64,000 nucleotides of DNA from Pseudoclavibacter sp. RFBB5. Lineage in GTDB: Bacteria > Actinomycetota > Actinomycetes > Actinomycetales > Microbacteriaceae. The stretch lies in assembly GCF_002931555.1 (NCBI RefSeq), contig NZ_PSTZ01000001.1, positions 434,001 through 498,000 on the forward strand, in the 5' to 3' direction. This document shows, one piece after another, positions 37,857 to 62,897 of this stretch (positions are counted from its first letter, which is position 1; each line of letters starts with the position of its first letter). The notes beneath the pieces are model-generated. The model did not search any database, was not told where the DNA came from, and saw only the letters and a program-made list of their open reading frames with translations. The position numbers were made by a program, and so were the translations under genes.

Positions 37857-38942
37857 ATGCCCGAGGCTTCGTACCGCATTCTCATCATCGAAGACGACGG
37901 TGACGTCGCCGAATTCCTTGAAACGGTGCTTCGGAGGCGTCTCGGGTGCGAGGTTCGCGTGCTGCGCGACGCGGTTGCCGTGCTGATGAACGTGAACGAT
38001 TTCGATCCTGATCTGGTGCTCACGGATGTAGAGCTGCCGGGAGCGAATGGCCTCGAGGTTCTGGGAAGACTGCGTGAGATCAAGCCCGATCTGCCTGTCG
38101 TGGTGATGACGGCGCACGCTTCTGTCGAGTACGCGGTGCACGCCCTGCGCCACCGTGCCGACGAGTTCCTGCAGAAGCCGATCTCGAGTGCGCTGCTGGT
38201 CAGCACCGTGCAGCGCCTTGTCGAGGCGGCCAGGGCCAGGCGCGCGCAGAACTCGCGCCGACGAGTGCTCGCGATCGGGGCGCATCCGGATGACGTAGAG
38301 ATCGGTGTCGGCGGCACGCTGGCCGCTCACGCGGCTGCTGGCGATTCGATCGTCATTCTGACGCTGTCTCGCGGCGGGCGGGGCGGTGACGCCGCGGATC
38401 GGCAGCATGAGTCTCTTGCCTCTGCGGAGTCCCTTGGCGCGCGCCTCTTCCTCGAGGACCTCACGGACACGGCCATTCCGAACAGTGATCCGACGGTCGG
38501 CATCATCGAGCGGGTGATCGCCGAGACCGATCCGACGATCGTCTACACGCATTCCCGGAATGACCGTCATCAGGACCATCGCGCAGTGCATGAGGCGACG
38601 CTCGTCGCGAGTCGGCGGGTTGCAAGCGTGGCCTGTTACCAGAGCCCCTCATCGACGATCGATTTCCGTCCCACACGGTTCGTGACCGTCGACGGGTTCA
38701 TAGATACGAAGCTGGGTCTCCTGGCGCGTTTCGCTTCGCAGGCCGACATCCGCGACTACCTGGCACCGGACTTCGTGCTCTCGGCGGCAAGATACTGGTC
38801 GCGGTTCGGGACGGGGACGTACAGCGAGCCGCTCGAGGTGATCCGGGATGCGAGTAGCATCACTGTGGAGCGCGGCGACGGTGAGTTCGCGACGGTGCAC
38901 AATCTGGGCACGACTGAGACTGAGAAGAAGAACCGCGCATGA
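37857..38942 (+). CDS. Receiver domain fused to PIG-L family deacetylase
   Basis: A 361-residue cytoplasmic protein with two domains. Residues 5-122 form a response-regulator receiver: acidic pair IIEDDGDV, phospho-acceptor Asp in LVLTDVELPG, MTAHAS, and Lys in FLQKPIS. Residues 134-340 form a PIG-L/LmbE domain, zinc-dependent de-N-acetylases of GlcNAc-type substrates such as in GPI, mycothiol or teicoplanin synthesis: AIGAHPDDVEIGVGGTLA and HSRNDRHQDHRAVHEA. Phosphorylation by the operon's kinase may thus switch a deacetylase directly. ATG 37857 used; a TTG at 37830 is possible. First gene of the eight-gene operon; next ATG overlaps the stop. Confidence 0.88.
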   Translation: MPEASYRILIIEDDGDVAEFLETVLRRRLGCEVRVLRDAVAVLMNVNDFDPDLVLTDVELPGANGLEVLGRLREIKPDLPVVVMTAHASVEYAVHALRHRADEFLQKPISSALLVSTVQRLVEAARARRAQNSRRRVLAIGAHPDDVEIGVGGTLAAHAAAGDSIVILTLSRGGRGGDAADRQHESLASAESLGARLFLEDLTDTAIPNSDPTVGIIERVIAETDPTIVYTHSRNDRHQDHRAVHEATLVASRRVASVACYQSPSSTIDFRPTRFVTVDGFIDTKLGLLARFASQADIRDYLAPDFVLSAARYWSRFGTGTYSEPLEVIRDASSITVERGDGEFATVHNLGTTETEKKNRA

Positions 38943-39901
38943 GACTTCGTGTTCTGATCACTGGTGCCGGTGGGCCTGCTGGGGTCGCGGTCATCCGCTC
39001 TCTGCTCGGCCGGGCTGACCTCGAGGTGTTCGCAGCTGACATGGACGGCTGGGCGAGCGGCCTGTATCTCGTCGATGCGGCGCACCGGAGGCTTGTTCCC
39101 CCCGGACTCTCGGAGGGTTTCTGCGACGCGGTGATCGCCGTCGTAGCTGCCGACGGCATCGACGTGGTCGTGTCCACAGTGGATGTGGAGCTCCCATCGC
39201 TCGCGGTTCGGCGCTCCGAGCTCGGAGCGGCGCTCGCGGCGCCCTCCGAGGAGGCGCTTGCGACGTGCCTCGACAAGTGGCTGCTCGTGCAGGCGTGCGA
39301 GCCGCACGCGCTGGTGCCGGCGACTGCTCTGCTCGATGACGAGGGCATCGCGCGCGACTGGGTCTTTCCGGTCATCGTGAAACCTCGCAGCGGTGCAGGC
39401 TCGCGCGGCGTGCATCTCGTGCACTCGCGCGAGGAGCTCGAGGCGAAGACGCGCGATGCCGCCTTGCTCATCCAGGAGAACCTCCCGGGCGACGAGTTCT
39501 CCGTGGACGTCGTGATGGGTGCCGACGGTCAGGCGATCGCCGCAGTTCCTCGTCTTCGGGCGCGCGTGGATTCCGGCGTGGCGGTTGCGGGCCGGACGGT
39601 GCATCGCTCGGAGCTCGAGGAGACGGCTGCCGCCTGTGCTCGCGCGGTTGGGCTCGTGGGGGTGGCGAACGTGCAGCTGAGGTACAGCACCGATGGCCGC
39701 CCAGCGCTGCTGGAGATCAACCCGAGGTTCTCGGGCGCTATGCCGTTGACGATAGCGGCCGGTGTGGATATGCCGTCGCTCGCGGTGGATATCGCGCTCG
39801 GCCGGTCGGTTCCTGCGCGCGTCGAGTTCCGTGAGGTCGCGAACGTTCGCTTCCTCGAGGATGTCTTCCTGCCCTGGGATGAAGTGCTCGCTCGTGCCTG
39901 A
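38939..39901 (+). CDS. ATP-grasp family ligase
   Basis: A 320-residue enzyme. Residues 1-95 form a Rossmann-like preATP-grasp domain (LRVLITGAGGPAGVAVIRSL). The ATP-grasp part follows: FPVIVKPRSGAGSRGVHLV (glycine-rich loop with Lys), LIQENLPGDEFSVDVVM, and the metal-binding LLEINPRFSGAMPLTIAAGV. Most similar in style to carbamoyl-phosphate-synthase-like and PylC-type ligases, which activate a carboxylate to an acyl phosphate and join it to an amine. It overlaps the deacetylase gene by 4 bp, so ligation of an acid or amino acid to an amino sugar exposed by deacetylation is an attractive but untested idea. Confidence 0.88.
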   Translation: MRLRVLITGAGGPAGVAVIRSLLGRADLEVFAADMDGWASGLYLVDAAHRRLVPPGLSEGFCDAVIAVVAADGIDVVVSTVDVELPSLAVRRSELGAALAAPSEEALATCLDKWLLVQACEPHALVPATALLDDEGIARDWVFPVIVKPRSGAGSRGVHLVHSREELEAKTRDAALLIQENLPGDEFSVDVVMGADGQAIAAVPRLRARVDSGVAVAGRTVHRSELEETAAACARAVGLVGVANVQLRYSTDGRPALLEINPRFSGAMPLTIAAGVDMPSLAVDIALGRSVPARVEFREVANVRFLEDVFLPWDEVLARA

Positions 39902-40673
39902 GATGCAGGCGGGTCCCGGTCTCGACGCGCTGCTGCTCGGCGACTGGCATGTCCATTCCGATTTCTCGGACGACGCGGAGAGTCCCATCTCGGCGAATGT
40001 CCGCGCCGCCGAGCGGGCCGGCCTGATGGCGATGCGGGCGACCGATCATGTGCGCCGTGACACGGCATGGGTGCCGGAGTTCGTTGCTGCGGTCGTCGAG
40101 GCGCGGGGCAGGACCGGTGTCGAGCTGGTGATCGGTGTCGAGGCGAAGATCCTGGATGCGCGTGGCACGCTCGACGTGCCGAGCGACCTCCGGGTGGGTG
40201 GCGGCGGAGTCGATGGCATTGTGATCGCCGATCACCAGTTCCCCGGTCCGGATGGTCCGTGGTCCCCGCGTGAGACGAGGGAGCGTCTCGCTCGCGGCCT
40301 GGCGGTCGAGGATGCGCTCGATCTGCTCATCGGCGCGACGATAGGCGCGATGCGCATGGCGGGCGGCGGCGCACAGCTGGCGCATCCGTTCTCGATCCTT
40401 CCCAAGGTGGGCATCGACGAGTCGCGGCTTTCGGCGGGGCATCTGTCGGCGTGGGCGTCCGCCGCGCGCGAGACGGGGACGCACATCGAGGTGAACGAGA
40501 AGTGGGTGTGCCCGAGTGCGCGGGCGATCGAGGCGGCCCTCGCAGGGGGTGCGACGCTCGTCGCGTCGACGGACAGTCACCGCGCGGCCGATGTCGGCGT
40601 CTACGACCGGGTTCGCGAGCTGCTGACGGAGGTGCCGGCGTTCAGCGCGTCGGATGCTGGTGGTGTCGCGTGA
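39894..40673 (+). CDS. PHP domain metal-dependent phosphoesterase
   Basis: A 259-residue protein with the complete PHP metal-site set: GDWHVHSDFSDDAE, ATDHVRRD, the Glu in IGVEAKI, the His in IADHQFPG, QLAHPFSI and the final STDSHRAADVG. PHP proteins hydrolyse phosphoesters or act as phosphatases using a cluster of two or three metals. I use GTG 39894, which overlaps the ATP-grasp stop as elsewhere in the operon; ATG 39903 and ATG 39879 are alternatives. Cytoplasmic. It may remove a phosphate from a precursor handled by its neighbours. Its stop overlaps the GTG of the glycosyltransferase. Confidence 0.88.
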   Translation: MPEMQAGPGLDALLLGDWHVHSDFSDDAESPISANVRAAERAGLMAMRATDHVRRDTAWVPEFVAAVVEARGRTGVELVIGVEAKILDARGTLDVPSDLRVGGGGVDGIVIADHQFPGPDGPWSPRETRERLARGLAVEDALDLLIGATIGAMRMAGGGAQLAHPFSILPKVGIDESRLSAGHLSAWASAARETGTHIEVNEKWVCPSARAIEAALAGGATLVASTDSHRAADVGVYDRVRELLTEVPAFSASDAGGVA

Positions 40674-42169
40674 GCGGTGACGCCTGGCTCGATCTCGGCG
40701 GGGCGGTGCTGGCGACGATCTTCGTCGCGTTCGTCGCGGTCGGTGCGATCCCGGCCTTCACGATGGCCTACCAGTTCCTCATCGTGCCGTTGCACGCTCA
40801 CTTCAATCACTACGCGAAGGCCGCGCCGTATCTCCCGAACGTGGCGGTTGTCGTGCCGGCGTGGAACGAGGGCGCGGTGATCGGGGGGTCGATCGATCGG
40901 CTCATGGCTCTCGAGTATCCACCGGAGCGTCTCAGGGTGTACGTCGTCGACGATGCGTCGACCGATGACACCCCCGATGTCGTTCTGGAGCGCGCCGCAC
41001 GGTACCCGGGCCGGGTCTTCCACCTGCGTCGCGAGAAGGGCGGGGAGGGCAAGGCGCACACGTTGAACCATGGGCTGCGCCGCGTCCTGAGCGAGGACTG
41101 GATGGAGGCGTTGCTCATCATGGACGCCGACGTCATCTACCTTCCGGATTCGATGCGGAAGATGACAAGGCATCTCGCCGACCCCGAGGTGGGGTCGGTC
41201 ACGGCGTACATCAGCGAGGGGAGCCTGCGGAAGAACTACCTGACGCGGTTCATCGCGTTCGAGTACGTCCTGTCGCAGGTCGGCAGTCGTCGCGCGCAGA
41301 ATGTGCTCGGGGCTCTCGCCTGCCTCGCCGGCGGTGCGCAGCTGCATTCGCGGGAGAACCTGCTCGCCATCGGCGGGCAGATCGACACGAGCTCGCTGGC
41401 GGAGGACACGGTCACGACTTTCGAGACGCAGCTCTCCGGCCGCAAGGTGGTGTTCGAGCCGCACGCTGTCGTGCTGGCCGAGGAGCCTCGTCACGTCGGG
41501 GACCTCTGGAAGCAGCGGCTTCGCTGGGCCAGGGGCAACGTGCAGCTGACGAAGCGGTACAGCCATCTGTGGTTCCGGCCTTCGAGGGAGCACAAGCTCG
41601 GCACGGTCTCGTTCGGCCTCTTTTGGTTCAGCGTGTTCCTGCTGCCGGTGCTCATGCTGCTGTCGTCGGTCGGCCTCATCGGGCTGTACCTGATGGATTC
41701 GCCGCTTGCCTCGCTCGTGTTCCGTGCGCTCTGGATCGTGGTGGGCTGCGCATACGTCTACATCATGCTGTTCGCGGCGCAGCTCGACCCGAAGGTGGGC
41801 AGAGTGGCTTGGCGCGAGGTGCTGCTGTTCCCCGGCCTGATCTCGATGATCGTGCTGCTGGCCGCGTTCTTCCCTGGGCTGTTCGAGGAGCGTGTGCCTG
41901 CCCTGTTCGGGCTGACGCTCACCCAGGCCGGGTACGACGCTTGGAACCTGGCGATCTTCGCGTGGATCTCGCTGTGCATGGTCGCGGCGTGGGGCATGAA
42001 GGCGATCGACTCGACGAGGATCGGCCGTTTGCTGAATCCCTTCCTGGTCTATCTCATCGGTTACGGGCCGATCTTGTGCGCGGTGACGTTCGACGCCTAC
42101 ATCAAGGAGGCGCGTGGTGCCGCGATGACGTGGGATAAGACGGAGAAGAGCGGACGCGTGCTGGCATGA
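40670..42169 (+). CDS. Processive family 2 glycosyltransferase, membrane-embedded
   Basis: A 499-residue protein. One membrane segment near residues 10-32 precedes the GT2 catalytic domain: VAVVVPAWNEGAVIGGSIDR, VYVVDDASTDDTPDVVLERA, MDADVIY (DxD, near 150), SLAEDTVTTF (catalytic ED) and QRLRWARGN (QxxRW, near 282). About five further segments follow from residue 305. The QxxRW motif marks processive synthases such as cellulose, hyaluronan and poly-N-acetylglucosamine synthases, which extrude the polymer as they make it. The closest plan is that of IcaA/PgaC. With the deacetylase gene in the same operon, an amino-sugar polymer or a lipid-linked glycan is likely. GTG start inside the PHP stop. 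Confidence 0.9.
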   Translation: MSGDAWLDLGGAVLATIFVAFVAVGAIPAFTMAYQFLIVPLHAHFNHYAKAAPYLPNVAVVVPAWNEGAVIGGSIDRLMALEYPPERLRVYVVDDASTDDTPDVVLERAARYPGRVFHLRREKGGEGKAHTLNHGLRRVLSEDWMEALLIMDADVIYLPDSMRKMTRHLADPEVGSVTAYISEGSLRKNYLTRFIAFEYVLSQVGSRRAQNVLGALACLAGGAQLHSRENLLAIGGQIDTSSLAEDTVTTFETQLSGRKVVFEPHAVVLAEEPRHVGDLWKQRLRWARGNVQLTKRYSHLWFRPSREHKLGTVSFGLFWFSVFLLPVLMLLSSVGLIGLYLMDSPLASLVFRALWIVVGCAYVYIMLFAAQLDPKVGRVAWREVLLFPGLISMIVLLAAFFPGLFEERVPALFGLTLTQAGYDAWNLAIFAWISLCMVAAWGMKAIDSTRIGRLLNPFLVYLIGYGPILCAVTFDAYIKEARGAAMTWDKTEKSGRVLA

Positions 42170-42306
42170 GCGAGTTGGGTGAGCGCCGTCTGGCGGAGGA
42201 GATCGAGCGGGATGCCAGAGCGGAGCGTCGCCTGTACCTGCAGGCGACGTTGGCGTTGGTGGGCGTCGCAGCGCTGGTCGTCGTGCGAGAGGTGTTCTTC
42301 CTGTGA
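42166..42306 (+). CDS. 46-residue single-pass membrane protein
   Basis: A short gene whose ATG overlaps the glycosyltransferase stop (ATGA) and whose stop overlaps the GTG of the next receiver gene (GTGA). The protein begins with a charged helix (MSELGERRLAEEIERDARAE) and ends in one membrane segment (LYLQATLALVGVAALVVVRE) and VFFL. This is the layout of small synthase- or kinase-associated subunits. No family recognised. The double 4-bp overlap is the main evidence that it is real. Confidence 0.75.
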   Translation: MSELGERRLAEEIERDARAERRLYLQATLALVGVAALVVVREVFFL

Positions 42307-42662
42307 GCGATGGGCCGTTGCGGGTGCTGATCGTGGATGACAATGCGGACCAGCGTGAGCTGCTGCGCACGCAGTTCCGGAAGGCTGGCTGCGGGGTGGC
42401 GTCAGCGGCGACCCTCGATGAAGCTCTCGCGAGCATCCGCGTCGAGGTTCCCGATGTCGCGGTGATCGACCTGCTGCTTGGTGTCGGGAGCGGCTGGGAG
42501 GTGCGGGAGAAGATCTGCGAGCTGGTGCCCGAAGTGGCCATCGTCATCTCCTCGGTTCTCGACGAGTCCGACTATCCGAGCTCGGATGATGTGCTCCCGA
42601 AGCCGTTCACGGGCAAGCAGGTCAAGGGGCTCGTGTCGCGTCTGCGTGAGAGGCGTGCCTGA
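42303..42662 (+). CDS. Stand-alone response regulator receiver protein (first)
   Basis: A 119-residue single-domain receiver with no output domain. It shows LIVDDNADQRELLRTQF, phospho-acceptor Asp in VAVIDLLLG, the Ser switch in VISSVLDESD and Lys in LPKPFTG. Such proteins act by protein contacts or pass phosphate along a relay. GTG start inside the stop of the small membrane protein; its own stop shares one base with the next ATG. The phospho-loop IDLLLGVGSGWEV is unusual in lacking the common MPGxxG. Confidence 0.93.
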   Translation: MSDGPLRVLIVDDNADQRELLRTQFRKAGCGVASAATLDEALASIRVEVPDVAVIDLLLGVGSGWEVREKICELVPEVAIVISSVLDESDYPSSDDVLPKPFTGKQVKGLVSRLRERRA

Positions 42663-43030
42663 TGGCGACGAGGGTGGTGATCGCGGATGACGATGACGAC
42701 ATCCGCTTCCTGCTCGAGACTGCCGCTCGTCGGGCCGGGTTCGAGATCGCGGGCTCGTACGGCGACGGGGTGAGCGCGTTGCGCGCTGCCGTCGAGTTGT
42801 CGCCCGAACTGCTGCTTCTGGATGTGTCCATGCCCGGGCTGTCGGGGCTCGAGGTGCTCGCGCGGGTGCGTGCCCAGGAGGGCGACGTTCGGGCGCACGC
42901 GATCATCGTGTCGGCCAACGCCGCGGTCGTGGCGCTGGAGGCGGGAGAGGCGGCGGGGGCAGACGGCTATCTGACGAAGCCCTTCTCGCTGGCCCGTCTC
43001 GTCGCGATGCTCAGGGAGGTGCGGTCATGA
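42662..43030 (+). CDS. Stand-alone response regulator receiver protein (second)
   Basis: A 122-residue single-domain receiver of canonical type: VVIADDDDDIRFLLETAARR, Asp in LLLLDVSMPGLSGLEVLARV, IIVSANA and the conserved Lys in GYLTKPFSLARL. No DNA-binding or enzymatic domain. Only moderately similar to the receiver before it, so not a recent duplication. It overlaps the histidine kinase by 4 bp and is the most likely direct phosphate acceptor of that kinase. Confidence 0.94.
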   Translation: MATRVVIADDDDDIRFLLETAARRAGFEIAGSYGDGVSALRAAVELSPELLLLDVSMPGLSGLEVLARVRAQEGDVRAHAIIVSANAAVVALEAGEAAGADGYLTKPFSLARLVAMLREVRS

Positions 43031-44757
43031 GCGTCTCTGTGAAGAGCTCGTTCGGTCAGTTCACGATCGACACGACGTCGCCTGCGATCCGGCAGCTCGC
43101 CTCGGTGTTCGGCTTGGTGCTGGCGTTCGGTGCCATGGTCGTCGTGCCTGGCGTGGTCATCATGGAGCCTGTTGCAGCGTGGACGGGGGTCGTGATCGTG
43201 TTCGCGCTCGCGGGTGTCGCCTTCGTGATCCCGTGGCCGAAGATCGCGCCGTTGTGGCAGCTAGTCCTTCCCGTGATCACGATGCTGGCGCTCGGCCTGT
43301 TCCGCGCTGGCACGGGCGGGGCGCAGTCGATGTTCACGTCGCTGATCCTGCTCCCCCTGATCTTCATCGCGGCGGCGCCCGGTCGCCGTGCCATCTGGCT
43401 GGCGATCGGCACGTCGGTGCTGACCGTCGCGATCCCGTATCTGATCGGCACGGCGCCGTGGAGCGACCCGCTGATCCTGCGCGTCGTCTTCACCCCGTTG
43501 GTGTTCGCGGTGATCGCGAGCATCATCAACGAGCTGTCGCATCGGGCGAGGGTGCAGGTGGAGAGCTCGAAGCTCTACGCGGACGAGCGGGATCGCCGCC
43601 TTCGGGAGGTGCAGGCGAGCAACGAGGCCCGCGAGGTCGCTCTCGGCGAGCTACGCGCCTCCGAGGCCTTCAACCGCAGCGTCTGGAACGCCGCGGTCCA
43701 CGAGATTGCCATCGTGACGGAGCTCGACGGGACGATCGTGGCGTGGGGTCCTGGTGCGCGCAACCTCCTCGGCCCGGCATCGAGCGAGGTCGTGAGGTCC
43801 CGGAATGTGACGGAGTTCCTGTCTGAGGCCTCTGCGTGCGCGTTGCGCGGCGAGGGAGAGGGCGATGAGGGCGGGGATCGCCTGCTTCGGCGTCTTGTCC
43901 AGATCGCCGGATGCGACGAGCAGGCGGGGACGCTCGTTGAGTTGGTCCGCACCGATGGAGAGCCGCTGTCGACGCTGATGACGTGCGCTCCGAGGAAGAC
44001 GCCAGAGGGGGACGTAGTCGGTCACATCTTCATCGCGTACGACATGACGCAGGTCAATGAAGCTTCCAGACTCAAGGATGAGTTCGTGGGCACGATCTCG
44101 CACGAGCTGCGGACTCCGCTGAGTTCCATCCTCGGCTACCTGGAGCTCGCTCGCGATGAGGAGAGCGGGCCGCTTAACGACGAGCAGCGTCACTACCTCG
44201 AGGTGGCTGAACGCAACGCTCAGCGGCTGCTCGCGCTCGTCGGGGACCTGCTCTTCGTCGCTCAGGTGGACGCGGGGAAGGTGCCGATGGAGTTCTCGCC
44301 GGTGCGCATCGGGGAGGTCGTGCGGCAGTCGTTGGAGACGGCACTGCCGACTGCTGCGCAGGCCTCGGTAGAACTAGTCCGTGAGCCAGGTAATGAGGAG
44401 GAGACTCTCGCCGGCGACGCGATGCGCCTCGGGCAGGCGATCGACAACCTGATCTCGAACGCGGTGAAGTTCACGCCGCGGGGCGGTGTCGTCCGCGTCG
44501 GGGTGCGCCGGGATGGGAACCAGCTCGTGGTGTACGTGTCGGACACGGGCATGGGCATTCCCGAGGCGGAGATGCATCGTCTCTTCACGAAGTTCTTCCG
44601 TGCGACGACGGCGACGAAGCAGGCGGTTCCTGGTGTGGGCCTCGGTCTGAACATCACGCTCGCGATCGTGAAGGCGCACGGCGGGCGGCTGGAGGCGTCG
44701 AGCACGGTGGGCGAAGGCACGACCTTCGAGATGCACCTGCCGGTCGCCGCGCGCTGA
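43027..44757 (+). CDS. Membrane sensor histidine kinase with PAS-like domain
   Basis: A 576-residue kinase. Residues 15-175 contain five or six membrane segments with very short loops, so it may sense something within the membrane. A coiled coil (ESSKLYADERDRRLREVQAS) leads to a PAS-like domain (about 215-335: EIAIVTELDGTIVAWGPGAR). The dimerisation domain carries the phospho-acceptor His in VGTISHELRTPLSSILGYLE (near 359). The ATPase domain has N box AIDNLISNAVKFTP, G1 VSDTGMGIPEAE, F box LFTKFFRA and G2 GVGLGLNITLAIVKAHGG. Last gene of the eight-gene operon. Three receivers in the operon are its candidate partners. Confidence 0.95.
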   Translation: MSVSVKSSFGQFTIDTTSPAIRQLASVFGLVLAFGAMVVVPGVVIMEPVAAWTGVVIVFALAGVAFVIPWPKIAPLWQLVLPVITMLALGLFRAGTGGAQSMFTSLILLPLIFIAAAPGRRAIWLAIGTSVLTVAIPYLIGTAPWSDPLILRVVFTPLVFAVIASIINELSHRARVQVESSKLYADERDRRLREVQASNEAREVALGELRASEAFNRSVWNAAVHEIAIVTELDGTIVAWGPGARNLLGPASSEVVRSRNVTEFLSEASACALRGEGEGDEGGDRLLRRLVQIAGCDEQAGTLVELVRTDGEPLSTLMTCAPRKTPEGDVVGHIFIAYDMTQVNEASRLKDEFVGTISHELRTPLSSILGYLELARDEESGPLNDEQRHYLEVAERNAQRLLALVGDLLFVAQVDAGKVPMEFSPVRIGEVVRQSLETALPTAAQASVELVREPGNEEETLAGDAMRLGQAIDNLISNAVKFTPRGGVVRVGVRRDGNQLVVYVSDTGMGIPEAEMHRLFTKFFRATTATKQAVPGVGLGLNITLAIVKAHGGRLEASSTVGEGTTFEMHLPVAAR

Positions 44758-44863: not shown

Positions 44864-44905
44864 CGCAAACTTTGGTGACTATTCGCGGTCTCTGCACGGT
44901 TTGCG
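44864..44905. repeat. Palindrome carrying the TTGGTGACTATTC word
   Basis: CGCAAAC (44864-44870) pairs with GTTTGCG (44899-44905). The spacer begins TTTGGTGACTATTC, nearly repeated at 45020-45034. Part of the 426-bp gap 44758-45183, which holds these palindromes and no other gene that I can support. Confidence 0.5.
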
Positions 44906-45016: not shown

Positions 45017-45086
45017 CAACTTCGGTGACTATTCAGCCGTACAAGTTCCAAGGCACGCGCGAGGGCGCATCAGTCACCGAAGTTTG
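45017..45086. repeat. Long-loop palindrome upstream of the DUF559 gene
   Basis: CAACTTCGGTGACT (45017-45030) pairs with AGTCACCGAAGTTTG (45072-45086) with a single extra base, around a 41-bp spacer. The left arm is a near copy of the sequence at 44867-44880 (AACTTTGGTGACTATTC), so three versions of the same word occur in 220 bp. Confidence 0.65.
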
Positions 45087-47528: not shown

Positions 47529-48518
47529 ATGACTGTGCTCATCACCGGCGGTGCCGGTTACATCGGCGCTCACGTGCTTGCTGCCCTTGAGGCTCGCGGC
47601 GACACGGCGGTTGTCGTCGATGACCTCACGACGGGCACTCCCGAGAAGGTCGGCGCGACCCCGCACTTCAACTTCGATATCTCCACGACGGGCGCGGCGG
47701 ATGCGCTTGCCGACATCATGCAGGCGCTCGAGGTGACGAGCGTCATCCACTTCGCGGCGAAGAAGCAGGTCGGCGAGTCGGTGGCGAGGCCCGCCTGGTA
47801 CTACCAGCAGAACATGGGTGGGCTCGCGAACGTGCTCGAGGCGATGCAGCGTGCGGACGTGAAGAGCCTGGTGTTCTCGTCGTCGGCGGCCGTGTACGGC
47901 CTCGGGACCGGGTCCGACGAGCCGATCCGCGAGGACGATGTGAAGAACCCCATCAACCCGTACGGTCAGACGAAGCTGGCGGGGGAGTGGCTCGTGCAGG
48001 CGGCGGCGAAGGCCGCGGGCATCAGTGCTGTGTCGTTGCGCTACTTCAACGTCGCGGGTGCTGGCAGCGATGAGCTGGCCGACCGCTTTGCGTTGAACCT
48101 CGTGCCGATGATCTTCGAGAAGCTTGCCGAGGGGAAGTCGCCGCTCGTGTTCGGCGACGACTACCCGACGCCTGACGGCACGTGCGTCCGTGACTACGTG
48201 CACGTCGTCGACCTGGCGGATGCGCACCTTGCGGTGCTGGATGCGATCGCGGCTGGCGAGCCGGTCTCTGCCGAGTACAACGTGGGTCGCGGTGAGGGCT
48301 ACTCCGTGTTCGACGTGCTGGATGCGGTGCGTCGCGCGAGCGGGCAGCAGTTCGAGGCGGACGTCGCGCCTCGTCGCCCGGGTGACCCTGCCTTGCTGGT
48401 GGCTGACGCATCCCGGATCAAGGATGAGCTGGGGTGGACGGCGAAGTACTCGCTGGACGACATGGTCACGTCGGCGTGGTCGGGGTTCGAGCGCAACGGC
48501 GCTCCGGTCAGGGCGTAG
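47529..48518 (+). CDS. galE: UDP-glucose 4-epimerase
   Basis: A 329-residue NAD-dependent short-chain dehydrogenase-type epimerase that interconverts UDP-glucose and UDP-galactose. Motifs: Gly-rich loop VLITGGAGYIGAHVL, SSSAAVYGLG, the catalytic YxxxK in NPYGQTKLAGEW, and SLRYFNVAGA. GAGGAG precedes the ATG. It can feed galactose into the nearby polysaccharide genes. The 3' end overlaps the convergent acyltransferase gene by 11 bp. Confidence 0.95.
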   Translation: MTVLITGGAGYIGAHVLAALEARGDTAVVVDDLTTGTPEKVGATPHFNFDISTTGAADALADIMQALEVTSVIHFAAKKQVGESVARPAWYYQQNMGGLANVLEAMQRADVKSLVFSSSAAVYGLGTGSDEPIREDDVKNPINPYGQTKLAGEWLVQAAAKAAGISAVSLRYFNVAGAGSDELADRFALNLVPMIFEKLAEGKSPLVFGDDYPTPDGTCVRDYVHVVDLADAHLAVLDAIAAGEPVSAEYNVGRGEGYSVFDVLDAVRRASGQQFEADVAPRRPGDPALLVADASRIKDELGWTAKYSLDDMVTSAWSGFERNGAPVRA

Positions 48519-49755
48519 GGCGGCGGCGGGGTCGCAGCTTCGGGAAGACGAAGACGGCGTCTCCTGCCGGCCAGCGGCGCAGCCAGCAGAAGAGGTAGCT
48601 GAGGCTCATCGCGACGATGGTGTTGATGATGAGCATCCAGGTGGGGTCGCGCATGCCCCAGTCGCCGAGCCATGAGGTGATCATGATCTGCGCGGGGTAG
48701 TGGACGACGTAGAAGACGACGGAGTTGCGGCCGATGTATTGCAGCCAGCGGGCGGAGTTGCCGTCGAGGCCCCGTTGGGTGCCGGTGAGGCGGCGGGTGG
48801 TCATCATGATCGCGGCGACCCCGGCGAGGACGACGGGGATCCAGACGAGCTCGTAGCGGTCGATGAGGCGGGTCGCGGCGGTGAGTGAGCCGTCGCCGGG
48901 GGCTGTTGAGGTTGTGCCCGAGACCCACTGCAGTGCGCCGTCGAGGCCGAAGTAGGTGCCGCGCGTCTGCCCGATGAGCAGCGCGCCGAAGCCGCCGGCG
49001 ATGGCGGTGCAGGCGATGAGCAGCGGCCAGCTCTCAATGCGGGCGAGCTGCTGTCGGTGCTGGGCGACGAGGTGGCCGGCGAAGAAGAATCCGCCGTAGT
49101 AGGCGAGGTCGCCCCACATCCCGGATGGGCCGATCCCGTCGGCGGAGAGCACGGCGCTGAGGCCCCAGAGGGCAAGGGGCACGAGCGCGAACCAGGGGCC
49201 GCGGATGCGGGTGAGGAGCGGGGCGGCGAGGTAGTAGATGGCGAGGTAGGAGATGAACCAGAGCCAGCTGAGGGCGATCCAGTTGCCGGGGTCTGTCCAC
49301 CCGTCTTGCATGGTGACGAGCCAGTACACGGTGCCCCAGAGCAGGTACGGCCAGACCAGGGTGCGGAGCTTGCCCGTGTAGTAGGTGGGGCCCGTCTTCG
49401 CGAGGGAGCGGCCGAGGAGCATTCCGGAGAGGAGGAGGAGCGTGCTCATCCGGTAGGGCGCGAAGAGCGTGTTGAGGTCGTTGATGACGCTGGTCGGGTC
49501 GACGCCGGCGAGGAAGATCGGGATGGCGCTGGCGTGGAAGGTGACGACGAGGAGGATCGCGGCGCCGCGGACGAGGTCCATCCAGTGCTCGCGCCGTCCT
49601 GCGGGGCCGGGGCCGGGGCCGGGGTTCGTGGCGGAGTCGGGCGTCACATGGGCCGGGCCTCTGCGGGATGGCTGCTCGGTGGGTGCTGGTGTTGGCATGG
49701 GGGTTTCATCGGGCGCTGGAGGGGTGTCACGGTGCGCGAACCGCGTTCCGATCAT
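48508..49755 (-). CDS. Acyltransferase family 3 membrane protein
   Basis: A 415-residue multi-pass protein with the AT3 Arg-x10-His motif in MDLVRGAAILLVVTFHASAI. A polar N-terminal extension of about 65 residues (Pro/Ala/Thr rich) precedes it. The ATG at 49755 overlaps the stop of the upstream paralogue (ATGA); ATG 49698 would give a shorter form. It shares LFAPYRMSTLLLLSGMLLGR, KLRTLVWPYLLW, YYGGFFFAGHL and WLQYIGRNSVVFYVVHYP with the proteins at 8250 and 49752. Likely O-acylates a surface glycan, fitting the polysaccharide genes next door. Confidence 0.88.
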   Translation of the reverse strand: MIGTRFAHRDTPPAPDETPMPTPAPTEQPSRRGPAHVTPDSATNPGPGPGPAGRREHWMDLVRGAAILLVVTFHASAIPIFLAGVDPTSVINDLNTLFAPYRMSTLLLLSGMLLGRSLAKTGPTYYTGKLRTLVWPYLLWGTVYWLVTMQDGWTDPGNWIALSWLWFISYLAIYYLAAPLLTRIRGPWFALVPLALWGLSAVLSADGIGPSGMWGDLAYYGGFFFAGHLVAQHRQQLARIESWPLLIACTAIAGGFGALLIGQTRGTYFGLDGALQWVSGTTSTAPGDGSLTAATRLIDRYELVWIPVVLAGVAAIMMTTRRLTGTQRGLDGNSARWLQYIGRNSVVFYVVHYPAQIMITSWLGDWGMRDPTWMLIINTIVAMSLSYLFCWLRRWPAGDAVFVFPKLRPRRRPTP

Positions 49756-50828
49756 CTGGTGACCGGCGTTGCTCGTTGTGGGAAGACGAAGAGCGCATTC
49801 ACGACGCGGCTGCGGCGTCGGAGTGCAACAGCGCCGAACGATACGGCAAGTGCGGCGATGATGCACGCGCTCATCACGATGGGCTGCTCGGTGATGCCCG
49901 CCGCGGCCAGGAGTCTCACGAGCACGATCTGCAGTGGGTAGTGAATGAGGTAGAACACGACCGAGTTGCGGCCGATGTGCTGCAGGAAGCGTGAGGGGGC
50001 TGGTTCGCGGTGTCCGTCGAGGGTGCCGCGGATGCGTCGCGCGAGGAGCGCGGTGCCGGCGATGCCGGCGAGTACGACGGGAACCCAGATCAGGTCGAAG
50101 CGCTCGATGGCACCGTCGTCGTTTGTGCCAGGCGTCGTGGGCGAGGTGAGGGTGAGCCCGTGCTCCTGGAGGACGAGCAGTGCGGCGAAGGTGGAGCTGC
50201 CGGCGAGGAGCAGCACCATCGCCAGCGGGGTGTCGAAGCGCCTCAGCAGGTGCTGGGTTCGGGCGATGAGGTAGCCGGCGAAGAAGAATCCGCTGTAGTA
50301 GCTGAGGTCGAAGAGCGTGCCGTCTGGGGCGACGGTGCTGAGCAGCCAGAGGGTGATCGGCACGAGGGCGAACCACGGGGTCGGGATGCGGGTGAGCAGG
50401 GGCGCGGCCACGTAGGAGAGGAAGAGGCAGAGGATGAACCACAGCCAGCTGCGTGTGGCCCAGCCATCTGGGCGCATCCACTCTGTGGGGTTGGAGGTGG
50501 CGATCCAGAAGATCACGAGCCAGACGACGTACGGCCAGGCGAGGGTGCGGAGTTTGCTGGCGTAGTAGCGGCGGGGTGGTTTGGCGAGGGCGCGGGGGAG
50601 GAGGAGGCCGGAGAGCAGCATGAGGGAGGTCATGCGGAACGGCGCGAAGTAGAGGGTGATGTCGTCGATGACGGTGCCGGGGGTGATGTCGGCGATGTGC
50701 ATGGGTACGTCGATGGCGTGGTTGGCGATGACGAGGAGGATGGCGGTGCCGCGGATGAGGTCGATCCAGCGTTCCCGCTGCTGGGGCACGGTCGACGATG
50801 CGCGTGCTGTCGCGTCGTGTGTCACCAT
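49752..50828 (-). CDS. Acyltransferase family 3 membrane protein
   Basis: A 358-residue paralogue of the next gene, with about ten membrane segments and the AT3 motif WIDLIRGTAILLVIANHAID (Arg-x10-His). Further shared marks are YFAPFRMTSLMLLSGLLL, ALAKPPRRYYASKLRTLAWP, YYSGFFFAGYL and IGRNSVVFYLIHYP. It is first in a two-gene operon of tandem duplicates and is divergent from the SGNH hydrolase gene, with 184 bp between the starts. In known systems AT3 proteins and SGNH-fold esterases cooperate in glycan acetylation. Confidence 0.88.
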   Translation of the reverse strand: MVTHDATARASSTVPQQRERWIDLIRGTAILLVIANHAIDVPMHIADITPGTVIDDITLYFAPFRMTSLMLLSGLLLPRALAKPPRRYYASKLRTLAWPYVVWLVIFWIATSNPTEWMRPDGWATRSWLWFILCLFLSYVAAPLLTRIPTPWFALVPITLWLLSTVAPDGTLFDLSYYSGFFFAGYLIARTQHLLRRFDTPLAMVLLLAGSSTFAALLVLQEHGLTLTSPTTPGTNDDGAIERFDLIWVPVVLAGIAGTALLARRIRGTLDGHREPAPSRFLQHIGRNSVVFYLIHYPLQIVLVRLLAAAGITEQPIVMSACIIAALAVSFGAVALRRRSRVVNALFVFPQRATPVTR

Positions 50829-52002: not shown

Positions 52003-53466
52003 ATGGAACTGCGCGACTACTTGCGAATCCTGCACAAGAACTGGATCATCATCCTGATTTGCACTCTGGCGGGTGTGGCCGCGGGAGCTGGGGCATCGCT
52101 CCTGATGACTCCCAAGTACGAGTCGCAAGCACAGCTCTACGTGTCAGTACGCGCGTCCGATGGCACAGAAGTCCAGGGTCTTAACCAGGGAACGACGTTC
52201 GCCCGTCAGGCAGTCCAGTCCTACACGACGGTTGTCGACAAAGAGATCGTGACCTCGCGAGTCGTAGAGGAACTGGGACTCGATCGAACCCCCGCGCAGC
52301 TCGCCACTCAGATTACGGCGACGAACCAGGTCAATACTGTGGTTATCGAGATATCCGTCATCGATGAGGACCCGCAGTTGGCGGCGACGCTTGCAAACTC
52401 GGTAGCCACCAACTTCATCGACGTAGTTGTCAATGAGTTGGAGAAGCCCGAAGGTGGGGCTCCTAGCCTGGTAAAGATTGAACCCGTTCAATCTGCCGAA
52501 GTACCGACCAGCCCGATAAGCCCACGAGTGTCTCTCAACGTCATCATCGGTGCTTTGCTTGGTTTGGCTATCGGTGTAGGTGTGGCTGTACTTCGCCAGC
52601 TCGTGGACACGAAGATCCGCAGTACTCACGACATTGCTCAGATCACGGATCGCCCCATCATTGGGACGATCGCCTTCGATCCTGATGCCGCTAAGCGCCC
52701 CCTCATTGTTCATGAGGAGCCAAAGAGTCCCAAAGCAGAGTCGTACCGGGCACTTCGCACGAACCTGCGATTCATGGACATCGAAAACACGCGACACAGC
52801 TTTGTGGTCACTAGCTCACTCCCATCAGAGGGAAAGAGCACCACGTCCGCCAATATCGCAATCGCCTTGGCGGAGCAGGGGGCCAAGGTCGCGCTCGTAG
52901 ACGGCGATCTCCGCAAGCCGAAGGTCGCGACGACAATGGGTGTTGACGGATCCGTAGGCTTGACCGACCTCCTGAGCGGACGCGCCGAGCCGAAGGATGT
53001 TCTGCAGCGATGGGGCCGTGGGCGCCTCTATGTGCTCCCCGCCGGCCGTATCCCGCCGAACCCGAGTGAGCTCCTCGGCTCCCACACGATGCAGCAGGTC
53101 CACGATCAGCTCCTCGCGGAGCACGACTACGTGATCATCGATGCGCCACCCCTCCTGTTGGTAACAGACGGTGCGGTACTCAGTGAGCTAGTCCATGGAA
53201 CGATTCTCGTAGTGGCCAGCGGACAGACACCTCGCTCGGCTCTGGCGGGCGCAGTTTCACAGCTCGAAGGCATCGGGCGAGAAGTCTCAGGAATCGTGGT
53301 AACCAAGGTACCGACCAAGGGCCCTGACTCTTACGCCTATGGTTCCTACGGTGCTTACGGTGCCTATTACGGCACGGACCAGGACGGGAACCCGACGACC
53401 GAGTACCGAAAAATCGGCACCGGTCAGATGCCGATCATCACGTCCGCTCGGAAGGGAACACGGTAG
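52003..53466 (+). CDS. Polysaccharide co-polymerase fused to bacterial tyrosine kinase (Wzz-BY kinase)
   Basis: A 487-residue protein. Residues 1-200 are a Wzz-type domain with membrane segments near 17-37 and 178-200 around an extracellular part. Residues 225-430 are a BY-kinase: VVTSSLPSEGKSTTSANIAI (Walker A, near 275), VALVDGDLRKPK (A prime) and YVIIDAPPLLLVTD (B). The Tyr cluster SYAYGSYGAYGAYYG follows (near 445), the usual autophosphorylation site. It controls chain length and export of the polysaccharide made by the genes behind it. In Firmicutes the two parts are separate; the fused form is usual in actinomycetes and proteobacteria. First gene of the exopolysaccharide locus. Confidence 0.93.
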   Translation: MELRDYLRILHKNWIIILICTLAGVAAGAGASLLMTPKYESQAQLYVSVRASDGTEVQGLNQGTTFARQAVQSYTTVVDKEIVTSRVVEELGLDRTPAQLATQITATNQVNTVVIEISVIDEDPQLAATLANSVATNFIDVVVNELEKPEGGAPSLVKIEPVQSAEVPTSPISPRVSLNVIIGALLGLAIGVGVAVLRQLVDTKIRSTHDIAQITDRPIIGTIAFDPDAAKRPLIVHEEPKSPKAESYRALRTNLRFMDIENTRHSFVVTSSLPSEGKSTTSANIAIALAEQGAKVALVDGDLRKPKVATTMGVDGSVGLTDLLSGRAEPKDVLQRWGRGRLYVLPAGRIPPNPSELLGSHTMQQVHDQLLAEHDYVIIDAPPLLLVTDGAVLSELVHGTILVVASGQTPRSALAGAVSQLEGIGREVSGIVVTKVPTKGPDSYAYGSYGAYGAYYGTDQDGNPTTEYRKIGTGQMPIITSARKGTR

Positions 53467-53553
53467 AAATCTCGGCTGGACGCTGAACGCGGGAGGGGCG
53501 ACGAAAATGAACTCTCCTCTCGAGCGGTGATCATGGATAAGGGAGCTTAGGGA

Positions 53554-54630
53554 ATGAATCAGGCGAGTGCTCGTGCTGTTGTATACTTCCGCATCCATGA
53601 CTCGACCTACCCACGTAACAGTCGCATTCGCTCGGCTCTGTCTAGCGAATACGAAGTAACGTGTCTCGCCAGAGTCCAGGGTGTGCACGGTCCACGTAAA
53701 TTGATTTACGAATCTTTGGGATTGTGGCGTGCCTCGCGGGGTGCTCGGATTCTTGTGCTTTCGGAATTTAACCTACAATACGCGAGCGTCGCCTGGGCAA
53801 TTGCACGACTGAGGGGCATGACTCTCGTTATTGATGGCTTCATAGGTATGTACGAGACTGAAGTCGAAGATAAGAAAACTGTCTTGCCTGGGTCGTATCC
53901 AGCCAAGAAGTACAGGTTTCTCGACGCAGTGGCGCGCAGAGTTGCCGATTATTACCTGATTGATACCGAAGTGCGCGCCAGAGAGATCGTAATGCGCACT
54001 AGATCCAAAGTGTTCGCGTTGCCGGTCGGTGCGCCTGACTGGGCTGTGCAGCATGAGCCTGCAAATGGCCACGACGAGATGAGGATTCTTTACTACGGCA
54101 ACTACATCGAACTGCACGGACTCGATGTCTTGGTGCCGGCTGTGCGTCGAGCTTCAGAATCTCGCAAGATACGCTTCACACTAATCGGAGACGGACCTAG
54201 CAGGGCTGCGGTCGAGGCCATGACGAATAACTGGCCCAGTGGCTCGAGGGTCGTTTTCTTGGATCCAGTGCCGCAGGAAAAACTTCCGAAATATATAGCA
54301 GAAAATGATCTCGTACTCGGAGTCTTTGGGTCATCTCTCAAATCTCGCTCTGTTATAGCTAATAAAGTCTGGCAGGGTTTATCTTCTGGACGTGTTGTGT
54401 TGACGCAGGTATCTCCAGCCATGCTCGAAATTGAGCAAATAGCCGGTTCCGCCCTCGTGCAAGTAGAGGCTTCAGAAGAGGCGATCGCTACTGCCCTCGT
54501 CGGTCTAGATCTCTTGCGCGTGGACCGTGGTGAGCTATCAGCGCACTTGGAAGATTACGTACAGATGAAATTTGAAAGATTCCTGTCGGCGATACGCGAC
54601 GTAAGCCCCCGAAGTCATTGGAAGTTTTAG
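53554..54630 (+). CDS. Glycosyltransferase, GT-B fold (family 4-like)
   Basis: A 358-residue protein that adds a sugar to the lipid-linked repeat unit on the cytoplasmic side. The C-terminal Rossmann half is recognisable: MRILYYGNYIELHGLDVLVP, FTLIGDGPSRAAVEAM, VVFLDPVPQEKLPKYIAEND, VANKVWQGLSSGRVV-type text (IANKVWQGLSSGRVV). The N-terminal acceptor half is divergent. Codon use is strikingly A+T rich (ATA, TTA, AGA codons) compared with genes left of 52 kb, an indication of horizontal origin. AGGGA precedes the ATG. Confidence 0.85.
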   Translation: MNQASARAVVYFRIHDSTYPRNSRIRSALSSEYEVTCLARVQGVHGPRKLIYESLGLWRASRGARILVLSEFNLQYASVAWAIARLRGMTLVIDGFIGMYETEVEDKKTVLPGSYPAKKYRFLDAVARRVADYYLIDTEVRAREIVMRTRSKVFALPVGAPDWAVQHEPANGHDEMRILYYGNYIELHGLDVLVPAVRRASESRKIRFTLIGDGPSRAAVEAMTNNWPSGSRVVFLDPVPQEKLPKYIAENDLVLGVFGSSLKSRSVIANKVWQGLSSGRVVLTQVSPAMLEIEQIAGSALVQVEASEEAIATALVGLDLLRVDRGELSAHLEDYVQMKFERFLSAIRDVSPRSHWKF

Positions 54631-54631
54631 T

Positions 54632-55723
54632 ATGCCTAAAGTAGCAATCATCGGAACGCGAGGTTACCCGAGTTTTTACGGTGGCTTTGAGACGGCCGTC
54701 CGAAAACTCGCCCCGTACCTCGCGGACCAAGGGTGGGATGTAACTGTCTATAGTCGCGCGCGTCGCGGGCCGAATTCAGGCGCGGATCGTCGGGTCAGAA
54801 GCGTGATCACACGCGGTATCGAGACGAAGAGCCTGAGCACGCTCTCGTATGGCTTTACCTCGGCGGTGCACGCAGCGCGCGAGAAACCAGACGTGGCACT
54901 CGTCATGAATGTTGCTAACGGATTCTGGCTCCCGATCTTGAAGGCGCGAGGTGTGCCTGCGCTCGTGAACGTGGACGGAATCGAGTGGGACCGAGAAAAG
55001 TGGGGAAAGGTCGCGAAGGGAGTGTTCAAGAGTGGCGCCAGGTTCACCGCGAAATGGGCGGATCAGCTAGTTTTCGATGCCCACGAGATCGGTCGACGCT
55101 GGGCTCACGAATTCGACCGCGACGGCGTTTTCATTCCTTACGGTGGAGATGCTCCCTCTTCGAGATTGCCCGTAGTGACTGGACTCGAGCGCCGTGGATA
55201 CATACTGGTCGTCGCCAGATTTGTTCCTGAGAACTCGATTCCTCAGTTCTTCGACGCCGTAGAGCTGCTGCCTTCTGATCTGCGGGTCATAATCGTGGGA
55301 TCGTCCGGCTACGGTGGGGAGCTAGACGAACGAGCAGAGAAGCTTAGCCAAACTCGGCCCGGCGTCGAATGGCTCGGGCACGTTTCTGACGATCAGAAAC
55401 TTCTTTCGCTTTGGCAAAACGCTGGAGTGTACTTTCACGGCCACAGCGTAGGAGGAACGAACCCAGCTCTCGTTCAGGCGATGGCCGCCGGGGCTCCGAC
55501 GCTGGCCCGCGACACGCCGTACAATCGTGAAGTGCTGGGTGATGAAGCGACTTACACCTCACCAAATGCAGCTGAGATAGCTTCTAAACTCGTCAAACTT
55601 TTGAATGATCCAGATGAGATGGAAGCCAACTCAATGCGAGGACAGCGGCGTGCCGAGGCTATCTACACCTGGGAGCGGGTGTGTTCATCTTACGAGCGTT
55701 CCCTCCGGGAGTTGATCGCATGA
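54632..55723 (+). CDS. Glycosyltransferase with DUF1972 N-terminal domain
   Basis: A 363-residue GT-B enzyme. The N-terminal DUF1972 signature is clear: MPKVAIIGTRGYPSFYGGFE followed by TAVRKLAPYLADQGWDVTVY, typical of rhamnosyl- or galactosyltransferases in O-antigen and exopolysaccharide loci. The C-terminal half has ILVVARFVPENSIPQFFDAV, VEWLGHVSDDQKLLSLWQNA and GTNPALVQAMAAGAPTLARD, with the nucleotide-sugar Glu position changed (NPALVQAMA). The start follows the preceding stop by 1 bp. Confidence 0.9.
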   Translation: MPKVAIIGTRGYPSFYGGFETAVRKLAPYLADQGWDVTVYSRARRGPNSGADRRVRSVITRGIETKSLSTLSYGFTSAVHAAREKPDVALVMNVANGFWLPILKARGVPALVNVDGIEWDREKWGKVAKGVFKSGARFTAKWADQLVFDAHEIGRRWAHEFDRDGVFIPYGGDAPSSRLPVVTGLERRGYILVVARFVPENSIPQFFDAVELLPSDLRVIIVGSSGYGGELDERAEKLSQTRPGVEWLGHVSDDQKLLSLWQNAGVYFHGHSVGGTNPALVQAMAAGAPTLARDTPYNREVLGDEATYTSPNAAEIASKLVKLLNDPDEMEANSMRGQRRAEAIYTWERVCSSYERSLRELIA

Positions 55724-57892: not shown

Positions 57893-57940
57893 CGTGAAGT
57901 TAATCGTGCTCTGGATCTTGCGTCGGCAAAGGTTGACCAC

Positions 57941-60132: not shown

Positions 60133-60134
60133 CG

Positions 60135-62851: not shown

Positions 62852-62897
62852 TTTACTTAATACCAAATCTCGTTAGATCAAACTCTAGGAGTATAGA

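Follow-up and report, generated by a model that had tools for sequence, protein, structure and literature searches.

A receiver-PIG-L operon of Pseudoclavibacter as a candidate synthase-type exopolysaccharide system under phosphorelay control

An operon joining a predicted phosphorelay to putative glycan-modifying enzymes

We analysed an operon of eight genes in a 64,000-nucleotide stretch of Pseudoclavibacter sp. RFBB5 (contig NZ_PSTZ01000001.1, positions 434,001 to 498,000; hereafter the window), which combines a receiver-PIG-L fusion (REC-PIG-L), an ATP-grasp ligase, a PHP phosphoesterase, a membrane glycosyltransferase of family 2 (GT2) and a 46-residue transmembrane (TM) protein with two stand-alone receivers and a histidine kinase. 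With a probability of roughly 0.57, we read it as a synthase-type exopolysaccharide system in which an amino-sugar precursor enzyme would be controlled by a two-component phosphorelay acting on the fused receiver, because the motifs are intact, the gene order is conserved, ATP-grasp and GT2 co-occur, the small TM protein is linked to the synthase, and diderm relatives carry export partners. The GT2, with the 46-residue protein as its small subunit, would polymerise and extrude the glycan; REC-PIG-L would strip acetyl from a cytoplasmic amino-sugar precursor, ATP-grasp would acylate the freed amine with a carboxylate that is probably an amino acid, while PHP would take phosphate off an intermediate. 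By phosphorylating the PIG-L-fused receiver, the kinase may raise or lower the supply or tailoring of the precursor with no need of transcription, with the two lone receivers as putative relays or phosphate sinks. In diderm relatives, a TPR-barrel protein, in some together with a BcsB-like protein, would take the polymer outward.

A sequence-only reading of the window had placed the operon in a plus-strand run at 37857-44757 with overlaps of 1-8 bp, and indeed all eight reading frames were found in the sequence (Table 1), successive genes overlapping by 4, 8, 4, 4, 4, 1 and 4 bp. The PHP gene takes a GTG start, with ATG at 39879 or 39903 as alternatives. Every domain named in that reading exceeds its curated Pfam cut-off (in brackets): Response_reg at 93.6 bits (30.2) and PIG-L at 83.7 (28.2) in REC-PIG-L, ATPgrasp_Ter (PF15632) at 114.7 (29.1), PHP at 37.5 (26.4), Glyco_tranf_2_3 at 108.9 (27) in the GT2, the two lone receivers at 53.3 and 79.6 (30.2), and HisKA at 77 (26.9) and HATPase_c at 98.2 (26.4) in the kinase. 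The 46-residue protein has zero matches up to an E-value (E) of 0.1 in Pfam or NCBIfam, and PilZ, GGDEF and EAL have no Pfam match among the eight proteins. By eye, no signal segment is seen in the ATP-grasp or PHP protein; there is no periplasmic modifying enzyme among the eight genes, the modifying enzyme being the receiver-fused one.

Table 1. Operon genes (window coordinates) and a further small protein near GT2 in diderm-type loci (coordinates within each locus)
Feature	Position	Strand	Basis
REC-PIG-L, receiver fused to PIG-L (N-acetylglucosamine de-N-acetylase type)	37857-38942	+	Pfam, motifs
ATP-grasp ligase (ATPgrasp_Ter / PRK12767-like)	38939-39901	+	Pfam, NCBIfam, kept residues
PHP phosphoesterase, YcdX / histidinol-phosphatase-like fold	39894-40673	+	Pfam, motifs, fold search
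Membrane GT2 (predicted synthase) with D, DxD, ED and QxxRW motifs	40670-42169	+	Pfam, NCBIfam, motifs, tree
46-residue single-TM protein	42166-42306	+	position next to GT2, profile search
Stand-alone receiver 1	42303-42662	+	Pfam, kept Asp/Lys
Stand-alone receiver 2	42662-43030	+	Pfam, kept Asp/Lys
Histidine kinase: hydrophobic N-terminal part (by eye), PAS, HisKA, HATPase	43027-44757	+	Pfam, phospho-His
Protein of about 114-121 residues	L071:6968-7330; L083:3485-3844; L069:3694-4041; L081:5517-5861; L080:6422-6787

REC-PIG-L belongs with the PIG-L family, with PF02585 over its cut-off and the family's AHPDD and HxDH motifs both present; its receiver holds the phospho-acceptor Asp, the Thr/Ser and the Lys. 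Relatives were drawn from a REC-PIG-L scan with one genome per species, from which the best 80 of 471 confirmed loci were analysed, so that counts based on them lean to close relatives. Genes on these loci were called with a home-made program, leaving start positions approximate; it missed the REC-PIG-L of L009, L044, L062, L063 and L083, which therefore fall outside an alignment of 90 proteins (the window's, those of 75 of the 80 loci and 14 separately fetched). In this alignment, the phospho-acceptor Asp is conserved in 89 of 90, the remaining one being a gap, and the Lys in 88. The PIG-L model nearest to the enzymatic part in NCBIfam is the bacillithiol deacetylase BshB1 (TIGR04001), at 76.4 bits against a cut-off of 182.5, and membership of that family was rejected. 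Matches in the Protein Data Bank (PDB) include BshB1 and MshB chains as well as the hydratase 5cgz; the presence of a hydratase among the relatives keeps de-N-acetylation at probable, and from the family level we infer an amino-sugar substrate.

In the ligase, K148, R150, E259 and N261 are among the residues conserved in at least 97% of 62 rows, and the nearest relatives are PDB 2pn1 and, under the cut-offs, the PRK12767 group of NCBIfam. Across 50 rows, the His and Asp residues in the PHP motifs vary little or not at all; the protein has no PDB match by sequence, and its predicted fold (predicted local distance difference test, pLDDT, 95.9) lies closest to YcdX and histidinol phosphatases. 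As these rank first and no CpsB entry is among the 50 fold matches listed, a CpsB-type protein-tyrosine-phosphatase role was discarded. The type of phosphatase differs by lineage: besides PHP, there is a low-molecular-weight protein tyrosine phosphatase in L055, L061, L072, L076 and L080, and a histidine phosphatase in L074, L082 and L084 (those of L055 and L084 checked by Pfam). In L080 the operon is followed by GlmS, which is also matched in L077, too few cases for use.

The D, DxD, ED and QxxRW residues of the GT2 are conserved in at least 97% of 63 rows, bearing out the earlier assignment of a processive-type motif set, QxxRW included. These motifs fit an inner-membrane polysaccharide synthase, and polymerase activity is predicted. 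The closest NCBIfam model is the poly-N-acetylglucosamine (PNAG) synthase PgaC/IcaA (TIGR03937), and the nearest PDB chains are 6yv7 and BcsA; membership of the cellulose synthase family CelA (TIGR03030) was rejected at 63.4 bits against 699.1. A quick tree groups the 63 system GT2s into a single clade (98 in the Shimodaira-Hasegawa-like approximate likelihood ratio test, SH-aLRT), with E. coli PgaC, BcsA and a paralogue from the same Pseudoclavibacter genome outside, and long branches leave the deeper branching order unsure. No GT2 match was obtained at E 1e-60 among 72,556 plasmids, and carriage on plasmids was rejected on this ground.

The 46-residue protein follows the synthase closely. 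Using a profile seeded with 20 sequences (the window's and those of 19 loci), which recovers all 19 seed loci plus 40 non-seed loci, we searched 64 loci that have a system GT2 and detected it in 55, 48 times directly downstream, with the start typically 4 bp within the GT2 end; among 36 loci with no GT2 in the stretch, only four gave a match (three Leifsonia loci and L070). The nine GT2 loci with no match are L087-L089, where the GT2 copies lie away from the operon, L061, whose contig stops inside GT2, and L032, L039, L041, L046 and L059. By analogy, the protein looks like a synthase subunit, placed like PgaD and much smaller. Another protein, of about 114-121 residues (Table 1), was noted near GT2 in five diderm-type loci, four of the five starting M-[KE]-M-S by eye; the L071 copy has no Pfam match.

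Conservation of the unit and candidate export partners in relatives

Sixty of the 80 loci are well flanked, with at least 6 kb downstream and at least 3 kb upstream. Within 8.5 kb, 43 of these hold ATP-grasp and GT2 together, five ATP-grasp only, one GT2 only and 11 neither; among the 43, the window kinase is matched in 36 and PHP in 37. The same gene order, from REC-PIG-L through ATP-grasp, PHP and GT2 to the small TM protein, is seen again in Microbacteriaceae, Cellulomonas, Nakamurella, Blastococcus and Conexibacter, and the eight-gene arrangement is, by conservation, more than chance. For the sequence-only reading, a conserved eight-gene set would speak for a system; of that set, the five genes from REC-PIG-L to the small TM protein hold as a recurring unit, while the receivers and kinase vary. 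Beyond Actinomycetota, where the five-gene unit recurs, parts are found in four phyla. Pseudomonadota loci (for example L055, L072, L076, L074 and L084) have REC-PIG-L, ATP-grasp, GT2 and the small TM protein, as has the Gemmatimonadota locus L069, with PHP in addition; Rhodothermota L060, a 5.9-kb contig, has REC-PIG-L, GT2 and the small TM protein. In Myxococcota, L083 shows only REC-PIG-L, GT2 and a small TM match, and L070 and L077 show REC-PIG-L and PHP with no GT2 or ATP-grasp in the stretch.

Congruent with a functional unit, the parts also stay together across an even draw of 150 Microbacteriaceae genomes (E 1e-30). REC-PIG-L occurs in 29, full-length in 25 (three have a stop inside the matched span), and ATP-grasp and GT2 occur in an identical set of 14 genomes, all within those 25. 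ATP-grasp adjoins REC-PIG-L in 14 of 14 and GT2 lies close by in 12, being retained elsewhere in the genome in G055 and G125. For the 11 genomes that have full-length REC-PIG-L only, neither ATP-grasp nor GT2 was present in the fetched stretches. In a phylum-wide sample of 246 genomes, REC-PIG-L (E 1e-50) and GT2 (E 1e-100) were recovered in the same two genomes, linked in both, one being the window's own. The system is infrequent and patchily distributed, within Microbacteriaceae too (14 of 150 genomes), yet its parts persist together.

Candidate export partners appear among the relatives that we take to be diderm, a set of 17 of the 80 loci assigned by title, the unclassified L081 included. 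A tetratricopeptide repeat (TPR) protein lies in or near the operon in 12 of the 17 (L055, L060, L069, L070, L071, L072, L074, L076, L077, L080, L082 and L084), and the same search gave none in the other 63 loci; a TPR-coupled outer-membrane pore is absent from the window operon. The one modelled, from L076, combines a TPR domain with a 14-strand barrel (pLDDT 87.2, predicted template-modelling score 0.59), against 16 strands in PgaA and BcsC according to PMC9384988, and its best PDB match is E. coli BcsC (E 6.8e-13), followed by ordinary porins, with PelB at rank 36. BcsB (PF03170, cut-off 21) was matched by four of six proteins tested, from L071 (46.0 bits), L081 (39.8), L083 (37.0) and L069 (52.7), and not by the large proteins tested from L070 and L060. 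These TPR-barrel and BcsB-like partners are the best evidence for polymer secretion, and polymer export in diderm relatives is supported.

The same evidence bears on whether a polymer is made at all. In mycothiol and bacillithiol synthesis, a glycosyltransferase, a PIG-L deacetylase (MshB, BshB) and a ligase act in sequence, and by this logic the product may instead be a glycolipid or a small amino-sugar conjugate. The PIG-L part is closest to BshB1 among PIG-L models, and its PDB matches include chains of BshB1 and MshB, which agrees with this; a deacetylase with an ATP-grasp ligase would suit a small conjugate, and the TPR-type neighbourhood search returned no exporter in the actinobacterial loci. 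However, the operon differs from those pathways in its ATP-grasp ligase, its receiver fusion and a GT2 of the membrane processive type, whose QxxRW set and PgaC/BcsA kinship point to polymerisation, and the TPR and BcsB-like partners of diderm loci would be hard to explain. We regard a small conjugate as unlikely.

The fused receiver, its kinase and their outputs

In the REC-PIG-L alignment, the set of residues that we take to be catalytic is whole in 65 of 65 proteins with ATP-grasp nearby against 18 of 25 without (Fisher p 6e-5, kinship ignored), which hints that PIG-L catalysis serves the ATP-grasp/GT2 pathway. The seven broken proteins, showing six residue patterns, fall in one Microbacteriaceae clade of 14 (support 94), of which L011 is the sole ATP-grasp-bearing member, and an independent-pairs test of catalytic loss versus ATP-grasp absence was not significant. 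ATP-grasp and GT2 are absent from all seven loci (L091, L092, L094, L095, L096, L098 and L100). That seven of the 13 ATP-grasp-free proteins of this clade have lost a catalytic residue, and that all of the seven but L096 retain the full receiver set, would suit a mainly signalling PIG-L domain, with REC-PIG-L as an allosteric regulator or scaffold of the synthase and constitutive enzymes; so would the kinase match that adjoins REC-PIG-L in 9 of the 11 loci from ATP-grasp/GT2-free genomes. However, the catalytic set stays whole in every aligned protein that has ATP-grasp nearby, the window's own included, and we hold such a signalling role to be rather improbable.

The residues of the predicted phosphorelay are well preserved, with the phospho-His of the kinase conserved in 62 of 62 and both Asp and Lys kept in receiver 1 (33/33) and receiver 2 (29/29). 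As the receiver is fused to the PIG-L enzyme, control by the kinase at the protein level, proposed in the sequence-only reading, stands as the natural interpretation, tempered by a kinase and receivers that are not constant in the unit. Inputs vary among relatives, as supported by several arrangements. An H-NOX gene and a kinase lie divergent to REC-PIG-L in four gammaproteobacterial loci (L055, L072, L076 and L080), with the H-NOX and hybrid kinase of L055 confirmed by Pfam; a LuxR-type regulator is also there in three of the four, the fourth contig ending before that gene. In L061 the kinase is present with no H-NOX; the kinase of L071 is a hybrid that includes receivers and an Hpt domain; and L069 is flanked by an NtrC-type regulator and a GGDEF-EAL protein. 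Transcriptional outputs thus exist beside some relatives, and perhaps outputs through cyclic di-GMP (c-di-GMP) too. The absence of any DNA-binding output holds for the window operon, and does not extend to the relatives flanked by LuxR-type (L055) or NtrC-type (L069) regulators.

These regulators with a helix-turn-helix, together with core operons that have no kinase, would fit kinase and receivers serving mainly a distant DNA-binding regulator, their place in the operon being incidental. We consider this highly improbable, as enzyme and receiver form a single protein and a kinase match lies within 8.5 kb in 36 of the 43 well-flanked core loci, a count that includes Blastococcus and omits the different, H-NOX-linked kinases found beside REC-PIG-L in three of the remaining seven (L055, L076 and L080).

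Several observations weigh against the exopolysaccharide reading under phosphorelay control. The kinase is absent from some operons: that of G119 ends without one, and in Blastococcus the operon likewise ends without a kinase, the match sitting in a separate upstream gene group. The GGDEF-EAL protein beside L069 leaves room for c-di-GMP there. Among the 25 Microbacteriaceae genomes with full-length REC-PIG-L, 11 are without ATP-grasp and GT2, from which REC-PIG-L also has a role of its own, and the catalytic contrast described above stems from a single clade. The Myxococcota and Rhodothermota loci, some of them short contigs, showed no ATP-grasp. The GT2 reaches only 113.6 bits with the PgaC/IcaA model, far under its cut-off of 422.3, and was rejected as a PNAG synthase. 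Half of the twelve TPR matches score low (23-74 bits) and could be repeat-driven, and the BcsC match of the L076 model has TM-scores of 0.28-0.34, against up to 0.66-0.73 by target length for the porin OmpG. Lastly, an extruded polymer is out of reach of a cytoplasmic PIG-L, whose action on a precursor is assumed; the sugar, polymer and ligase substrate are unreadable from sequence.

Relation to described systems and genomic surroundings

According to PMC7112194, which names five polymers, Gram-negative synthase-dependent systems typically combine a synthase with a part that binds c-di-GMP, modification enzymes in the periplasm and a protein coupling TPR to an outer-membrane pore; a term search of that text returned no mention of PIG-L, ATP-grasp, response regulators or histidine kinases. 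The window operon is not filed as a member, because the c-di-GMP-binding part and the periplasmic modifying enzymes are missing from it, and most likely it works like one. Like the Bcs, Pga, Ica, Pel and alginate systems, it has a membrane-bound GT2 synthase accompanied by a small membrane protein, and its diderm relatives add the TPR protein (one with a modelled TPR-barrel) and, in four, a BcsB-like protein. In contrast to these systems, the operon is without PilZ or another known c-di-GMP domain, brings in a receiver-PIG-L fusion, ATP-grasp and PHP, and has a GT2 under the PgaC and CelA cut-offs. An ATP-grasp ligase is noted in a polysaccharide locus in PMC4000134, and a eukaryotic ATP-grasp protein is predicted to modify surface polymers with amino acids in PMC2824669. 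Judged by the titles and starts of abstracts listed, searches among open-licence papers gave no description of a receiver-PIG-L fusion or of the present set of genes.

The four gammaproteobacterial loci resemble the biofilm circuits in which H-NOX, a nitric-oxide sensor, works with HnoK, in that they pair an H-NOX gene with a kinase, here beside REC-PIG-L. However, the Shewanella outputs described in PMC6335343, namely a c-di-GMP phosphodiesterase, a degenerate HD-GYP protein and a transcription factor, include no sugar enzyme, and no H-NOX lies near the window operon. We tentatively propose, at somewhat short of even odds, that the operon belongs to a further class of synthase-dependent exopolysaccharide systems, with parts in five phyla, amino-acyl-type modification of the polymer's amino sugar and a phosphorelay through the receiver-deacetylase fusion replacing c-di-GMP, nitric oxide being one gammaproteobacterial input. 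If true, direct action of a kinase on an enzyme of sugar-precursor supply would be a further and rapid switch for biofilm or envelope polymer, and in Gammaproteobacteria nitric oxide may influence the matrix independently of c-di-GMP. The system would also offer an unusual polymer chemistry, pairing a deacetylase with ATP-grasp, and a synthase partner of 46 residues absent from Pfam and NCBIfam.

A 2025 paper (PMC12613277) reportedly deals with pig-L and biofilm in Clostridioides difficile.

The same Pseudoclavibacter genome holds a triad of PIG-L, ATP-grasp_3 and GT2 (L086:8000-11150, contig C1 at about 962-965 kb), an operon that parallels the window's in drawing its enzymes from these three superfamilies. 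It differs in that its PIG-L has an N-terminal hydrophobic part and no receiver domain, its GT2 falls in a separate clade, and no PHP or small TM match is present in the stretch. GT2/ATP-grasp pairs of a similar kind are neighbours of REC-PIG-L in Promicromonospora (two loci), Cellulomonas (two) and Krasilnikoviella (one).

Upstream of the operon, genes like those of folate and ftsH-region housekeeping were noted from their N-termini by eye, and downstream lies a gene whose match to REase_MTES_1575 stays below the cut-off (22.6 against 38.2). What seems to be a separate Wzx/Wzy-type polysaccharide cluster begins 7 kb downstream (window 52003-64000); judged by eye from the protein starts, with no family search, it includes Wzz-like, glycosyltransferase, polymerase-like, flippase-like and UDP-sugar dehydrogenase-like proteins. 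Three proteins with very similar acyltransferase-3-like starts, again by eye, are encoded at 8250-9254, 48508-49581 and 49752-50789. Between the kinase and the next gene, the 17-bp motif AACTTYGGTGACTATTC, for which 0.01 chance matches are expected in the window, occurs twice (44868-44884 and 45018-45034), with an inverted 13-bp copy at 45072-45084; a longer form has two matches in the genome, of which this region downstream of the kinase is one.

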